Assembly (NCBI RefSeq): GCF_913776015.1
Contig: NZ_CAJYMD010000051.1
Location: 62,001 to 126,000 of the forward strand
Source of the DNA: an uncultured Oxalicibacterium sp.
Lineage (GTDB): Bacteria; Pseudomonadota; Gammaproteobacteria; Burkholderiales; Burkholderiaceae_D
Direction of reading: 5' to 3'
Length of the DNA stretch: 64,000 bases
Below, one piece after another: positions 45,087 to 52,286 of this stretch; the stretch's first letter is position 1, and each line of letters begins with the position of its first letter. Position numbers and translations under genes: made by a program. Below the pieces are notes generated by a model. It was not told the DNA's origin. It made no database searches and saw only the letters and a program-made list of their open reading frames with translations.

Positions 45087-47105
45087 ATGGCTATGTCACG
45101 CGCAAAGAAAATCATCCTATGGAGCGGAATCGCCACATTGGCGACAATCAGTCTGCTGATCATCATCCTGATCACGTTCGACTGGAATCGCGCCAAGCCC
45201 TGGATCAACGATAAGGTCAGCGAGGCAACTGGCCGTCCATTTGCCATCAATGGCGATCTTTCGCTGACCTGGCAACGCGGCTTTCCCAAAACGGATACCT
45301 GGCGTGACTGGGTGCCGGTTCCCCGGCTTAGCGCGCAAGACGTGGTGATGGGCCAGCCGGAATGGTCAAAGCAAAAACAGAACATGGCAGAAGTGGGCCA
45401 CATCACTTTCTCGGTCAATCCCTTGCCCTTGCTAGCCAAGAATATCGTCATCCCGACTCTTCAACTCGATGATCCAAAAATCGTGTTGGAACGCCTGAAA
45501 GATGGCCGCAACAACTGGACGTTCGACAAGGAAGACGATAGCCCATCCGAATGGAAACTCGATTTGCAGCGCTTGCTGTTCTACAAGGGCGAAATTGCAC
45601 TCAAGGATGAAATCAAGAACATCGATGCCAAGGCCAACATCGACTCACTCGATCCTGCGACCAATAGCGATTTCGTGATGGGCTGGAAATTGTCCGGCAG
45701 CTTCAACGGCGCACGTATTGGTGGTGAAGGCAAGGCAGGCGAGTTGCTTGCCTTGCGCAATGTGGAAAAACCTTTTCCTCTGCAAGCCAGCGTGAGCGTC
45801 GGCAAAACATCGATTGCCGTCAATGGCACGATCACCAAGCCGCAGGAACTGGCGGCCATCGACATGCGCCTGAAGCTCTCCGGCCCGAGCATGGCGGATC
45901 TCTATCCGCTGACAGGCATCACTTTGCCAAAAACACCTGCTTATTCCACTGAGGGCCGTCTGATAGGCACCACGAACGATTTGGGCGGTAAGTGGACCTA
46001 TGAAAACTTCAAGGGCAAGATGGGGGAGAGCGATATCGGCGGTACCCTGACTTACGAAGGCAAACAGCCACGTCCTCTGCTGTCGGGAACAGTTGTCTCC
46101 AATCTGCTCAATTTTGCCGATCTGGGGCCGATCATTGGTGCCGATTCCAACGAAAGCAAACGTGAACGCGGTGTTGCTGCCAATCAACCGGCCGACAAGC
46201 TTTTGCCGGTGGAAAAATTCACGACGGATCGCTGGGACAGCATTGATGCCGATGTGCAGATAACCGGTCGCAAGATCGTTCGTGATGCATCGCTGCCTAT
46301 CGATAACCTGAACACGCACCTGATCCTCAAGGACAAGGTGGTGACCCTGAGTCCCCTCAAGTTCGGCATGGCTGGCGGTACGCTGACGGCCGATATCAAG
46401 ATGGATGGCAGCAATCCAGTCATCAAGGCGCAAGCCAAGGTATCGGCACGCAGCTTGAAGCTCAAGCAACTGTTCCCGACCTTCCAGCCGATGCAGGCGA
46501 GCTTTGGTGAAGTCAATGCAGATACCTCCCTGTCTGCCACTGGCGGCTCCATAGCGAGCTTTCTGGCGGCCTCCAATGGTGAAATCAAGGCGCTGGTGAA
46601 TGACGGCACCATCAGCAAGCTGCTGCTGGAGCAAATGGGTCTGAATGTCGGCAATATCGTTTTGTCTACCTTGTTCGGCGACAAGCAGGTCAAGCTGAAC
46701 TGCATGGCGACCGATCTGGCCGTGACCAATGGCGTGATCAATACCCGTACGCTTGTCGTCGATACCGAAGATGCCATCATTCATGTCACAGGCGATATCA
46801 ACATGGCAACGGAGAACTTCAATCTGACCATCAAGCCTGTCAGCAAGGGCTTGCGTATCGTATCGCTGCGTGCGCCGCTCTATGTCAAAGGAACATTCAA
46901 GAATCCGGACGTTGGCGTAGACAAAGGCGTGCTGGCATTGAAAGCAGGTGGCGCACTGACACTCGGTGCGGTTGCAGCACCGCTTGCCGCCTTGCTGCCC
47001 TTGATCAACGTAGGTGGCGAAGAACAGAGCCAGTGTGCCACCTTGCTCAAGGAAGCAAAGGAAAAACCGGTTGCGCCACCACCAGGTAAAACCTTGAAAA
47101 AGTGA
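45087..47105 (+). CDS. AsmA family protein
   Basis: The 672-residue product starts MAMSRAKKIILWSGIATL, with one N-terminal inner-membrane helix (LATISLLIIILITF) and a long beta-rich periplasmic body. The family motifs are present: VSEATGRPFAINGDLSLTW near the start and, in the C-terminal AsmA domain, LKQLFPTFQP, ASNGEIKALVNDGTISKLLL and the final hydrophobic segment. AsmA-like proteins bridge inner and outer membranes and are linked to phospholipid transport. An in-frame ATG at 45093 has a comparable ribosome site. It is an isolated gene followed by a terminator at 47178. Confidence 0.88.
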   Translation: MAMSRAKKIILWSGIATLATISLLIIILITFDWNRAKPWINDKVSEATGRPFAINGDLSLTWQRGFPKTDTWRDWVPVPRLSAQDVVMGQPEWSKQKQNMAEVGHITFSVNPLPLLAKNIVIPTLQLDDPKIVLERLKDGRNNWTFDKEDDSPSEWKLDLQRLLFYKGEIALKDEIKNIDAKANIDSLDPATNSDFVMGWKLSGSFNGARIGGEGKAGELLALRNVEKPFPLQASVSVGKTSIAVNGTITKPQELAAIDMRLKLSGPSMADLYPLTGITLPKTPAYSTEGRLIGTTNDLGGKWTYENFKGKMGESDIGGTLTYEGKQPRPLLSGTVVSNLLNFADLGPIIGADSNESKRERGVAANQPADKLLPVEKFTTDRWDSIDADVQITGRKIVRDASLPIDNLNTHLILKDKVVTLSPLKFGMAGGTLTADIKMDGSNPVIKAQAKVSARSLKLKQLFPTFQPMQASFGEVNADTSLSATGGSIASFLAASNGEIKALVNDGTISKLLLEQMGLNVGNIVLSTLFGDKQVKLNCMATDLAVTNGVINTRTLVVDTEDAIIHVTGDINMATENFNLTIKPVSKGLRIVSLRAPLYVKGTFKNPDVGVDKGVLALKAGGALTLGAVAAPLAALLPLINVGGEEQSQCATLLKEAKEKPVAPPPGKTLKK

Positions 47106-47177
47106 CGTATCCAGTTGCTTTGGAAACGAGCATTCAAAGAATAAAAAACTGAATCCAGTGATTTTGTGGCAATTGAG

Positions 47178-47207
47178 AACCCCGGCAGAGATGTACGGGG
47201 TTTTTTT
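47178..47207 (+). terminator. Rho-independent terminator after the AsmA gene
   Basis: AACCCCG/CGGGGTT with an 11-base loop, followed by TTTTTTT. Confidence 0.85.
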
Positions 47208-47261
47208 ATATCTGTGATGTATATATAAGAATAGTAGTAATGGTTAACGTCATGCTTGTTC

Positions 47262-47270
47262 TGTGGATAA
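47262..47270 (-). promoter_or_regulatory. DnaA box TTATCCACA
   Basis: Perfect match on the minus strand, in repeat copy 1. Confidence 0.8.
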
Positions 47271-47418
47271 GTCTGTTAACTTCTTTTAAATCAAGTCTCT
47301 AGAATTTTTACATCTATATGGAAAACCATCCTGATTACAAAGGACAGATTCTGTATAAATTCTGTTCAGAAGGTTTTCCCTTTCTTATTCACTGTTCAAG
47401 CAATGGTTTTCCAAAGAT

Positions 47419-47427
47419 TTATCCACA
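47419..47427 (+). promoter_or_regulatory. DnaA box TTATCCACA
   Basis: Perfect match on the plus strand, in repeat copy 1. Confidence 0.8.
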
Positions 47428-47621
47428 TTGCTGTTGAATGGAAGCCAGGTTTTGTTCCTTCTCGCTCATTTTTTATTTCAAGGAAAAAGGTTTTCCAAAA
47501 AGAAGCGATGAGGTTCCATTCCATGAGAAGTTGAAGAGGAATCCGGCAGAAAAAGAGCGAGGGTTTTAATACTTTTGTTTGTATATATGAATAGTAGTAA
47601 TAGTTAACGTCGGGTGTTAAT

Positions 47622-47630
47622 TGTGGATAA
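47622..47630 (-). promoter_or_regulatory. DnaA box TTATCCACA
   Basis: Perfect match on the minus strand, in repeat copy 2. Confidence 0.8.
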
Positions 47631-47778
47631 GTAGAGTAAACCTATAAAAATCATGACCTTGTACGATTCATAAATCCTTGCATAAGGGGTGTACGAAGCA
47701 AGGATGGATTTTGTATAAATTCCTGACTGAAGTTGTAAACAGCTTTACCCACAAGCTATCCATGCGTTTTATACAGCT

Positions 47779-47787
47779 TTATCCACA
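47779..47787 (+). promoter_or_regulatory. DnaA box TTATCCACA
   Basis: Perfect match on the plus strand, in repeat copy 2. Confidence 0.8.
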
Positions 47788-47886
47788 GGTTGTCATACGT
47801 GACAAATGTGCATGCCTGGTCAAAGCGCAGAATGGTAATCTTGACGTTTTCTTTCATTGGCGGCGTGCATCAAACTGGGAGGCAAC

Positions 47887-49407
47887 ATGAGCATGCAGGA
47901 CGACGGGCGAATTGGTCATTTCATCGATGGTCGTGTCGTAAACATCGCAGACCGCAGCTATCAGGATGTCTTTAATCCGGCAACGGGCGAGGTCAGTAGA
48001 AAAGTCTTGCTGGGCAATACGACTGATGTGAAAAATGCGGTGGCCGTTGCCAAGGCAGCCGCGCCAGCATGGGCCGACACTTCGCCTTTGCGACGTGCGC
48101 GCGTGCTATTCAAATTCAAGGAATTAATAGAAAAACACCACGATGATTTGGCAGCAGCCATCACGCGTGAGCATGGCAAGGTGTTTTCCGATGCCAAAGG
48201 TGAGGTGACACGCGGCCTGGAAGTGATCGAATTTGCCTGTGGCGCACCGCAATTGCTGAAGACTGCTTATACCGATCATGTTGGTGGTGGCATCGATAAC
48301 TGGAATCTGCGACAGCCATTGGGTGTCACGGTCGGTATTACGCCTTTCAATTTCCCTTTCATGGTGCCGATGTGGATGGCACCGATGGCGCTGGCAACCG
48401 GGAACACCTTCATTCTCAAACCATCGGAACGTGATCCTTCTCCATCATTGATGGTGGCGGAATTGCTGCAACAAGCCGGCTTGCCTGATGGTGTGTTCAA
48501 TGTCCTCCAGGGGGACAAGCAAGTGGTCGATGGTTTGCTGGCGCACCCGGATGTGCGCGCAGTTTCCTTTGTCGGTTCGACTCCGATTGCCGAGCATATT
48601 TATACGACGGGTGCCGCGCGCAAGGGACCTTATCCTTTGCGGGTGCAGGCATTGGGCGGTGCCAAGAATCACATGGTGGTCATGCCCGATGCCAATCTGG
48701 AACAGGCGGTGGATGCGTTGATGGGGGCAGCGTATGGTTCGGCAGGGGAACGTTGCATGGCAATTTCGGTTGCCGTGGCGGTGGGTTCGATTGCAGATGC
48801 ACTGGTCGATACGTTGCAAAAACGCGTTCGTTCCCTGAAGGTGGGCAACGGCATGGATCAGCAATCGGAAATGGGGCCGGTTGTCAGTGCTGCGCATCAA
48901 GCAAGAATCGAAGGCTATATTGTCGATGGTGTTCGGGCAGGTGCCAAATTACTGGTGGATGGCAGAGGGTTCCGTGTAGTCGGTCATGAAAAAGGATTCT
49001 TTGTCGGCGGTACCTTGTTCGATCATGTGACGCCGGAGATGCGTATTTATCAGGAAGAAATCTTCGGCCCTGTATTGTGTGTCGTACGTGTGCCGGATTT
49101 GGGCGCGGCCATCGATTTGATCAATGAACATGAATTTGCCAATGGCGTAGCGCTGTTCACAGCGGATGGCAACACGGCACGGGAATTCTCCCGACGTATC
49201 GAAGTCGGTATGGTTGGCATCAACGTCCCGTTACCGGTTCCGATGGCTTGGCATTCATTTGGAGGCTGGAAGCGTTCCATGTTTGGTGACTTGCATGCTT
49301 ATGGAGAAGAGGGTGTGCGGTTCTACACTCGGTATAAATCCATTATGCAGCGTTGGTCATCATCGATAGGCAAGGGTGCGGAGTTCTCGATGCCCGTCAA
49401 TAAGTAA
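47887..49407 (+). CDS. mmsA: CoA-acylating methylmalonate-semialdehyde dehydrogenase
   Basis: GGGAGG precedes the ATG at 47887, giving 506 residues, the usual size. It is an aldehyde dehydrogenase of the MmsA class: NAD region [41 protein letters not shown], the catalytic Cys in [17 protein letters not shown], and the class-typical [15 protein letters not shown]. It converts methylmalonate or malonate semialdehyde with CoA and NAD to propionyl- or acetyl-CoA in valine, inositol or beta-alanine breakdown. Its 3' end is directly followed by a parS palindrome. Confidence 0.93.
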
Positions 49408-49432: not shown

Positions 49433-49448
49433 TGTTTCACGTGAAACA
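49433..49448. promoter_or_regulatory. parS: parS site 1, ParB-binding
   Basis: Exact TGTTTCACGTGAAACA. It lies in a 26-base perfect palindrome (49428-49453) followed by TTTTTG, so it may double as the mmsA terminator. Confidence 0.93.
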
Positions 49449-50351: not shown

Positions 50352-52286
50352 ATGCTCTATCCCACCAAATTCGATGTCATTGTTGTTGGCGGCGGCCATG
50401 CCGGAACGGAGGCCGCGTTGGCTTCTGCACGCATGGGGCAGGCTACATTGCTGCTTACCCATAACATCGAAACCCTGGGGCAGATGTCTTGCAATCCATC
50501 GATCGGTGGGATTGGTAAGGGGCATCTGGTCAAGGAAGTGGATGCCATGGGTGGTGCGATGGCCATTGCCACTGATGAGGCTGGCATCCAGTTCCGCATT
50601 CTGAATTCGTCCAAAGGTCCGGCGGTGCGTGCTACCCGTGCACAGGCAGACCGTTTGTTGTACAAGCAGGCAATCCGTTCGCGTCTGGAAAATCAGCCTA
50701 ACCTCTGGTTGTTCCAGCAAGCCGTGGACGACTTGATCGTCGAGGGTGATCGAGTGGTTGGCGCGGTGACGCAGGTCGGTATCCGTTTTCAGGCAAAAGC
50801 CGTTGTGCTGACGGCCGGGACTTTCCTCGATGGGAAAATCCACGTCGGCCTGAATAACTATGCAGCAGGTCGGGCAGGGGATCCACCGGCTGTATCGCTG
50901 TCGGCACGCCTTAAGGAATTGCAGCTGCCGCAGGGTCGTCTGAAAACCGGTACGCCGCCACGCATCGATGGTCGCAGTATCGATTTCTCAGTGATGGAGG
51001 AACAACCGGGCGATCTTGATCCGGTGCCAGTCTTTTCGGTGATGGGTAATGCTGCCATGCATCCGCGCCAGATGCCGTGCTGGGTAACGCATACCAACGA
51101 GAAAACACACGACATCATCCGCAGCGGCTTGGATCGCAGCCCGATGTACACCGGTGTGATCGAAGGTGTAGGGCCGCGTTATTGCCCGTCGATCGAAGAC
51201 AAGATTCATCGCTTCGCTAGCAAGAACTCGCACCAGATTTTCCTCGAACCCGAAGGCCTGACGACCAACGAGTTTTATCCGAACGGTATTTCCACCAGTC
51301 TGCCTTTTGACGTACAGCTCGATCTCGTACGTTCGATGCGTGGAATGGAAAATGCCTACATTCTGCGTCCCGGCTATGCGATCGAATACGATTACTTCGA
51401 TCCGCGTGGATTGAAGGCATCGCTGGAAACCAAGGTCATCAAGGGACTGTTCTTTGCCGGCCAGATCAACGGCACCACCGGTTACGAAGAAGCGGCAGCA
51501 CAAGGCATGCTGGCCGGACTGAATGCCGCGCTGCAGACGCAGGAACGTGATGCCTGGACGCCACGCCGCGACGAAGCCTATCTGGGTGTGTTGGTTGATG
51601 ATTTGATAACAAAAGGCGTGCTGGAACCATATCGCATGTTCACCAGCCGCGCCGAGTACCGCCTGAGCCTGCGTGAAGACAACGCCGATATGCGTCTGAC
51701 AGAAATCGGTCGAAAGCTCGGTTGCGTCGGTGATGCGCAATGGGCTGCTTTTGAAGCCAAGCGCGAAGCCGTTGCGCTTGAACTCGAACGTCTGCGTTCG
51801 ACCTGGGTGAATCCCCGCATTCTGGCGCAGGCGGAAGCCGAGCGCGTGCTGGGTAAGGCTATCGAACGCGAGTATGCGCTTGCTGACTTGTTGCGCCGCC
51901 CGAACGTTTCGTATGAGTCCCTGCTGACGCTCAAGGGTATGGACGGACAAGACCTCGGTGGTCCGGGCGTTACCGATGATGCTGTGCGCGAGCAGGTGGA
52001 AATCCAGCTCAAATACGCGGGCTACATCGATCGGCAGGCCAAGGAAGTCGAGCGCCACGATCATTATGAAAACCTGAAGTTGCCCACCGTGTTTGACTAC
52101 ATGGAAGTCAAGGGACTGTCTTTTGAAGTGCGGCAGAAACTGTGCAAGCATCGTCCCGAAACGCTGGGGCAGGCATCGCGTATTTCCGGCGTGACACCGG
52201 CAGCGATTTCGCTGTTGCTTGTCCACCTGAAGAAAGGCGGCTTCAAGGAATTTTCCGCGCTACCACCATCTGAAGCCGCTGCATGA
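50352..52286 (+). CDS. mnmG: tRNA U34 carboxymethylaminomethyl-modifying enzyme MnmG (GidA)
   Basis: The 644-residue FAD protein begins with the dinucleotide fold [22 protein letters not shown] and the family block [17 protein letters not shown]. Later motifs include [32 protein letters not shown], and the C-terminal region [22 protein letters not shown]. With MnmE it makes the 5-carboxymethylaminomethyl modification at the wobble uridine of certain tRNAs. It overlaps rsmG by four bases and opens the mnmG-rsmG-lipocalin run. Confidence 0.97.

Follow-up and report, generated by a model that had tools for sequence, protein, structure and literature searches.

Two tandem oriC-like modules at the very probable chromosomal replication origin of a member of the Oxalobacteraceae

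The chromosomal origin of the genome studied here appears to be built of two tandem oriC modules, the one on the mmsA side (module 2) being the probable main opening site and the one on the AsmA side (module 1) a second site, competent or assisting, a reading that we consider reasonably likely. The region that carries the two units, offset from one another by 360 bp, is very probably the chromosomal replication origin as such. The evidence consists of motifs, their spacing and conservation, their position relative to the GC skew and the presence of genes for DnaA and IHF, and from these we infer binding, opening and use of the modules.

Organization of the locus

The window analyzed is a stretch of 64,000 nucleotides within a 155-kb contig (C51) of the source genome, which comprises 3.16 Mb in 82 contigs; coordinates are those of the window unless a contig or another genome is named. 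A gene-free stretch of 781 bp (47106-47886, GC 37%) lies between an AsmA-family gene and an mmsA-like gene, and no ORF of at least 45 codons was found wholly inside it. The names of these two neighbours are taken over from the original prediction, as is that of mnmG. The surroundings are as follows.

45087-47105, plus strand: AsmA-family gene, left neighbour (ORF; ortholog beside the modules in genus relatives)
47179-47208, plus strand: downstream of the AsmA gene, a terminator-like stem (ACCCCG...CGGGGT) with a run of T, read from the sequence by eye
47887-49407, plus strand: mmsA-like gene, right neighbour (from an ATG inside the ORF; ortholog in genus relatives)
49433-49448, strand not assigned: candidate parS site TGTTTCACGTGAAACA (sequence match)
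50352-52286, plus strand: mnmG (gidA) (ORF; served as query in relatives)

The mnmG gene likewise adjoins oriC in E. coli (public E. coli record). Wherever both were located in a family genome, mnmG and the modules are about 3 to 20 kb apart; in G141, a genome of another family, the distance is 129 kb. The source genome encodes DnaA and both IHF subunits, IHF alpha and beta being named above the NCBIfam cut-offs.

Two units at an offset of 360 bases

Two ungapped units at an exact 360-base offset had been predicted, and the alignment bears this out, with 147 of 313 positions identical at that offset vs. 63-95 at other offsets from 340 to 380, and at most 121 at the best offset in any of 500 Markov sequences of equal composition. 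The motifs are all found where they had been reported, i.e. GAATAGTAGTAAT at 47229 and 47589, GTATAAATTC at 47353 and 47713, exact TTATCCACA boxes on the minus strand at 47262 and 47622 and on the plus strand at 47419 and 47779, and a fifth near-box, TTACCCACA, at 47745. Read on the plus strand, each unit begins with an AT-rich segment, TAGTAGTAAT(G/A)G and an 18-nt spacer starting TTAAC, and continues with an R1-like TGTGGATAA (position 0), a match to the IHF consensus WATCARNNNNTTR at +27, a less perfect box at +123 and an exact TTATCCACA at +157. This site and the third box position at +123 are additional to what had been described before, and what had been noted as AT-rich GAATAGTAGTAAT consists of successive DnaA-trios. 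The parts of the two modules are listed below.

47208-47427, plus strand: origin module 1 (AsmA side, more diverged)
47208-47231, plus strand: module 1, AT-rich segment, candidate unwinding element (from sequence)
47232-47243, plus strand: module 1, DnaA-trios TAGTAGTAATGG
47262-47270, minus strand: module 1, R1-like DnaA box, exact TTATCCACA
47289-47301, plus strand: module 1, IHF consensus at +27, 12/13
47385-47393, plus strand: module 1, degenerate DnaA box at +123, two mismatches
47419-47427, plus strand: module 1, far DnaA box at +157, exact
47568-47787, plus strand: origin module 2 (mmsA side, closer to the genus type)
47568-47591, plus strand: module 2, AT-rich segment, candidate unwinding element (from sequence)
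47592-47603, plus strand: module 2, DnaA-trios TAGTAGTAATAG
47622-47630, minus strand: module 2, R1-like DnaA box, exact
47649-47661, plus strand: module 2, IHF consensus at +27, 12/13
47745-47753, plus strand: module 2, DnaA box at +123, one mismatch
47779-47787, plus strand: module 2, far DnaA box at +157, exact

The trios upstream of TGTGGATAA read TAG TAG TAA, with a further TAG in module 2, giving at least three NAN trios in the polarity of a basal unwinding system (BUS); a box with four mismatches, a possible weak second box, can be read by eye in the trio-to-box spacer of module 2. The two exact boxes of a unit had been said to face each other; read as TTATCCACA they in fact point apart, the left one lying on the minus and the right one on the plus strand, which is the same way round as R1 and R4 of E. 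coli.

Neither the combination of trio plus box nor a set of four exact DnaA boxes occurred in any of 20,000 Markov sequences of equal composition, and the four exact boxes at the locus are 4 of only 17 in the whole genome. Over the whole window 14 boxes with at most one mismatch were counted vs. 9.4 expected, a number reached in 13 of 100 shuffles, so that it is the clustering of the boxes that is unusual.

As predicted, the elements were kept while the rest of the units diverged: 44 of 50 element positions (trio plus GTTAAC, R1, IHF 13-mer and far box) are identical between the modules vs. 85 of 180 others (Fisher p 1e-7), and 18 of the 19 positions of trio plus GTTAAC are kept in module 1. 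The GTATAAATTC block, which had been counted among the conserved elements, is indeed common to both units but is not a general element in the genus, being found with at most one mismatch in only three of ten other genus origins (G003, G009, G010). Recent duplication or an assembly artefact in the source genome was rejected because the modules are 56% identical after alignment.

Position of the modules relative to the GC skew

Had the origin been placed correctly, cumulative GC skew was expected to turn at the locus, and on C51 it does, falling to one minimum at 45949, 1.3 kb from the modules, and then rising; short local rises occur at 20-24 kb and 40-46 kb of the contig. The minima given here are those of contiguous stretches of 100-155 kb, complemented by sampled stretches, rather than of whole chromosomes. 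In G002 (4.11 Mb) the minimum of a 120-kb stretch is at 4043568, between modules at 4043249-4043287 and 4043905-4043943, and among the sampled stretches those running from the modules past dnaA up to 1.8 Mb are positive and those from 2.2 Mb round to the modules negative, the sole exception being +0.005 at 3.4 Mb. The minimum of a 100-kb stretch of G010 (3374766) is inside the module pair. For G059 (6.31 Mb) a 120-kb stretch has its minimum at 362962, only 0.24 kb from the first of three modules (from 363205); the skew of this genome is weak, and 2 of 20 stretches, at 0.12 and 5.8 Mb, are of opposite sign. In G001 the minimum of a 140-kb stretch is 8.6 kb from the module pair. With minima 1.3 kb (C51) and 8.6 kb (G001) off, the skew points to the locus and cannot tell which module is used. 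The skew position supports the original prediction; that each unit is a whole oriC-like core goes further than the pair of boxes described there.

An origin at dnaA was considered and rejected. The gene is at 45 kb on C51, 64 kb to the left of the modules, and the rise there (40-46 kb) is merely local and followed by another 60 kb of fall. In G059, where dnaA is at position 388 and the minimum 363 kb from it, the skew is negative on both sides of the gene.

A DARS1-like array between priA and hemE

A cluster of DnaA boxes elsewhere in the genome had been named as a finding that would speak against an origin at this locus. Such a cluster does exist: the only further place in the genome where several exact boxes cluster (C14:42429-43233, three units) is between priA and hemE, named from their sequences, but the skew runs one way through it. 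The box offsets in each unit, 0, +14 and +26, equal those found in E. coli bioD-uvrB, the location of DARS1. An origin at this cluster was therefore rejected, since the skew of C14 keeps falling through it and its geometry is that of E. coli DARS1; the array is a candidate for a triplicated DnaA-reactivating site near the origin. Each of the 13 genus genomes has two or three units flanked by priA and hemE. Array and origin modules share a contig in ten of these genomes, where they are 30-57 kb apart; in the source genome they are on different contigs.

Generality of the module geometry

A set of 69 modules was gathered by trio and R1 box alone, and the remaining elements were then scored. The loci had been retrieved with trio-plus-box patterns, leaving out G141 and the contig-end modules of G004 and G005, and the modules come from 35 names that are non-independent (related species, and one genome possibly under two names). 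An IHF consensus of at least 12/13 is at exactly +27 in 64 of the 69, in 35 of them perfect, with the next best offset accounting for 4 modules. The far box is exact at +156 to +158 in 60 and has at most one mismatch within +155 to +159 in 67. Weak DnaA boxes recur at +43, +88, +105, +122 and +141 in subsets of the set; an E. coli-type oriC has an array of low-affinity DnaA-ATP sites between its strong boxes, to which they may or may not correspond.

The geometry of R1, IHF site and far box was rejected as a class-wide pattern, as it was found in 6 of 274 genomes of the class, a sample with only 3 genomes of the same order, vs. 55 of 116 of the family; the source genome is matched twice among the class genomes and five others once each. 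At least two such places were counted, by eye from the table, in 23 of the 55 matching family genomes; the two matches in G074 are a single place read on both strands. In two genomes (G181 C1:221841-224780 and G051 C32:259621-262052) the geometry matches are about 2.1-2.6 kb apart, wider than usual.

Copy number and orientation in relatives

With a looser family-wide pattern, counting exact matches only, modules were found in 182 of 294 Oxalobacteraceae genomes, 65 of which have one, 91 two and 26 three; the other 112 may hold diverged modules that such counting passes over. A reversed-pattern control gave no match among the same 294 genomes. At least two modules are present in 117 genomes (all on one strand in 104, on both strands in 13) and in 17 of the 26 genera having any match, and the module pairs are at one locus among the places listed. 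An earlier, stricter pattern had matched 33 of 148 relatives, with 1 match among 59 outside the family. A scan of a named genome collection with the strict pattern returned 42 stretches, all from records titled with an Oxalobacteraceae genus or with the family name, apart from two titled only as Burkholderiales. All 26 genomes of one genus (g6) have two or three modules, and three modules with position-specific trio signatures are common to 10 of the 16 g6 genomes listed, across species.

Within the genus of the source genome, tandem pairs are found in the source genome and G009, and inverted pairs with the trios inward in six relatives (G001, G002, G003, G010, G011 and G012), with arms 83-97% identical over 164-314 bp. 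By equal criteria G006, G007 and G008 have a single module, so one module suffices in the genus. Conservation in close relatives, which the original prediction called for, therefore holds in part: family genomes often carry two or three modules, but G006, which by mnmG identity is the nearest among the 12 genus relatives, has one module, in the same place. The contigs of G004 and G005 end less than 100 bp from the origin modules, as expected if near-identical inverted arms break the assembly.

In a tree of 28 module rows the two copies of each of G001, G002, G011 and G012 group together with strong support, and the AsmA-side copy of G003 groups with the AsmA-side copy of G010. This is a sign that the module pair may predate some of the species and have been homogenised, or newly made, in others. 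The near-identity of the inverted copies could result from gene conversion or, alternatively, from repeated recent duplication. The tree gives no support for shared descent of the tandem pairs of the source genome and G009. Module 2 is 61-66% identical to most genus modules and 55% to one, module 1 is 52-59% identical to them, and the branch of module 1 is the longest in the tree (1.55).

It is conceivable, and we suggest it only tentatively, that Oxalobacteraceae start replication from natural oriC arrays, each with two or three complete and independently competent modules at a single locus, tandem in most genera and, in many Herminiimonas, mirror-imaged with inward trios and gene-converted. 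There is continuing discussion of how a single core loads two helicases in opposite directions. If the suggestion is true, each module of a mirror-image pair may be responsible for opening one end and loading one helicase, and bidirectionality would be written into the DNA.

Proposed working of the modules

By a mechanism carried over from E. coli and B. subtilis, DnaA would bind the R1-like boxes (47262, 47622) and the far boxes (47419, 47779), and IHF would bend the DNA at +27 as it does in the E. coli origin. Nucleated at R1, a filament of DnaA would spread onto the upstream single-stranded trios (TAGTAGTAATRG), and the AT-rich segment to the left of the trios would open for helicase loading. 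We infer that the copies open independently of one another. Of the two, module 2 is the probable main opening site, as it is nearer the genus type. Module 1, which keeps trios, R1, IHF match and far box and is without a good +123 box, is most likely a second opening site, competent or assisting: the preserved trios suggest that it can be opened, and its divergence and the loss of the +123 box that it is secondary. Having two copies could make initiation more likely, provide a reserve or allow the work to be shared.

It is somewhat unlikely, though it deserves consideration, that only module 2 (47568-47787) opens and that module 1 is an accessory that loads or titrates DnaA, like one half of a bipartite origin. 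The greater divergence of module 1 and its lack of a good +123 box, a feature shared by the AsmA-side module of G009, are compatible with such a role, and in C. difficile a clear DnaA-trio was reported in only one half of the origin, the half that melts, although both halves are needed for this (PMC7561715). On the other hand, the trios kept in module 1 would be needless for a mere binding site, and the three modules with distinct trio signatures shared across g6 species argue against a single opening site.

It is improbable that module 1 is a decaying duplicate without function. Copy number does vary within the genus and the closest relative manages with one module, yet decay fits poorly with elements so much better kept than the remaining positions, and with the occurrence of at least two modules in most of the matched genera. 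DnaA boxes also serve as regulatory sites, but a promoter under DnaA control, or a region titrating DnaA, ahead of mmsA in place of an origin is very improbable given the conserved geometry of trio, IHF site and far box and a skew that turns within 1.3 kb of the modules on C51 and in G002, G059 and G010 (8.6 kb off in G001).

Comparison with known origins

A bacterial chromosome is usually described with one oriC core. Each core of the two-module origin proposed here is of a known kind, and bipartite and putative double origins are known as well; no account of repeated complete origin cores in Oxalobacteraceae was found in searches of a library of open-licence papers. A family whose related species have one, two tandem, two inverted or three cores at a like locus offers a natural experiment on origin copy number and orientation.

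Like E. coli oriC, the modules have an R1-type TGTGGATAA beside an AT-rich opening region, a far box of opposite sense, mnmG nearby and an IHF site at exactly +27 (11/13 in E. coli). They differ from it in the position of the far box (+156 to +158 here, +180 for R4), in the pronounced TAG trios and in having two cores. There is no GATC in 47106-47886, and therefore the locus is not classed as a full E. coli-type oriC and SeqA control of the E. coli type is not expected.

The BUS of B. subtilis and others has DnaA-trios (3'-GAT-5') beside a DnaA box (PMC8287927). The modules share with it the order and polarity of the trios and the placing of the box, which is 3' of them on the TAG strand, whereas their spacer is 18 nt vs. 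a limit of 16 nt given there for a located box, and the unit is repeated two or three times per origin (PMC8287927). Bipartite origins (B. subtilis, H. pylori, C. difficile) likewise have two groups of DnaA boxes at one locus; in those origins dnaA usually separates the two groups and the opening element belongs to one of them, while here no gene lies between the copies and each has trios of its own (PMC7561715). More than one oriC-like region per chromosome was also reported as putative double origins by Gao 2015, where the four cases tabulated, by that paper's own account a sample, are from other taxa, three with widely separated regions and the fourth with two dnaA-linked bipartite origins (PMC4403523). 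None of these four repeats a single module in a short array, tandem or inverted (PMC4403523).

Location of dnaA

An origin at the modules would mean that the family has its origin placed away from dnaA. Modules and dnaA are on one contig in 18 of 27 family genomes, 39-363 kb apart, the distances in G002 and G010 being measured through the ends of the records. Of six family records that are single contigs, three begin at dnaA. The single-contig records of G002, G010 and G059 start there though the local skew minimum is 50-363 kb away, and position 1 of the record is thus not the origin. In the source genome, exact DnaA boxes at C51 44566 and 46118 flank dnaA without a lasting switch of the skew; perhaps they serve dnaA autoregulation.
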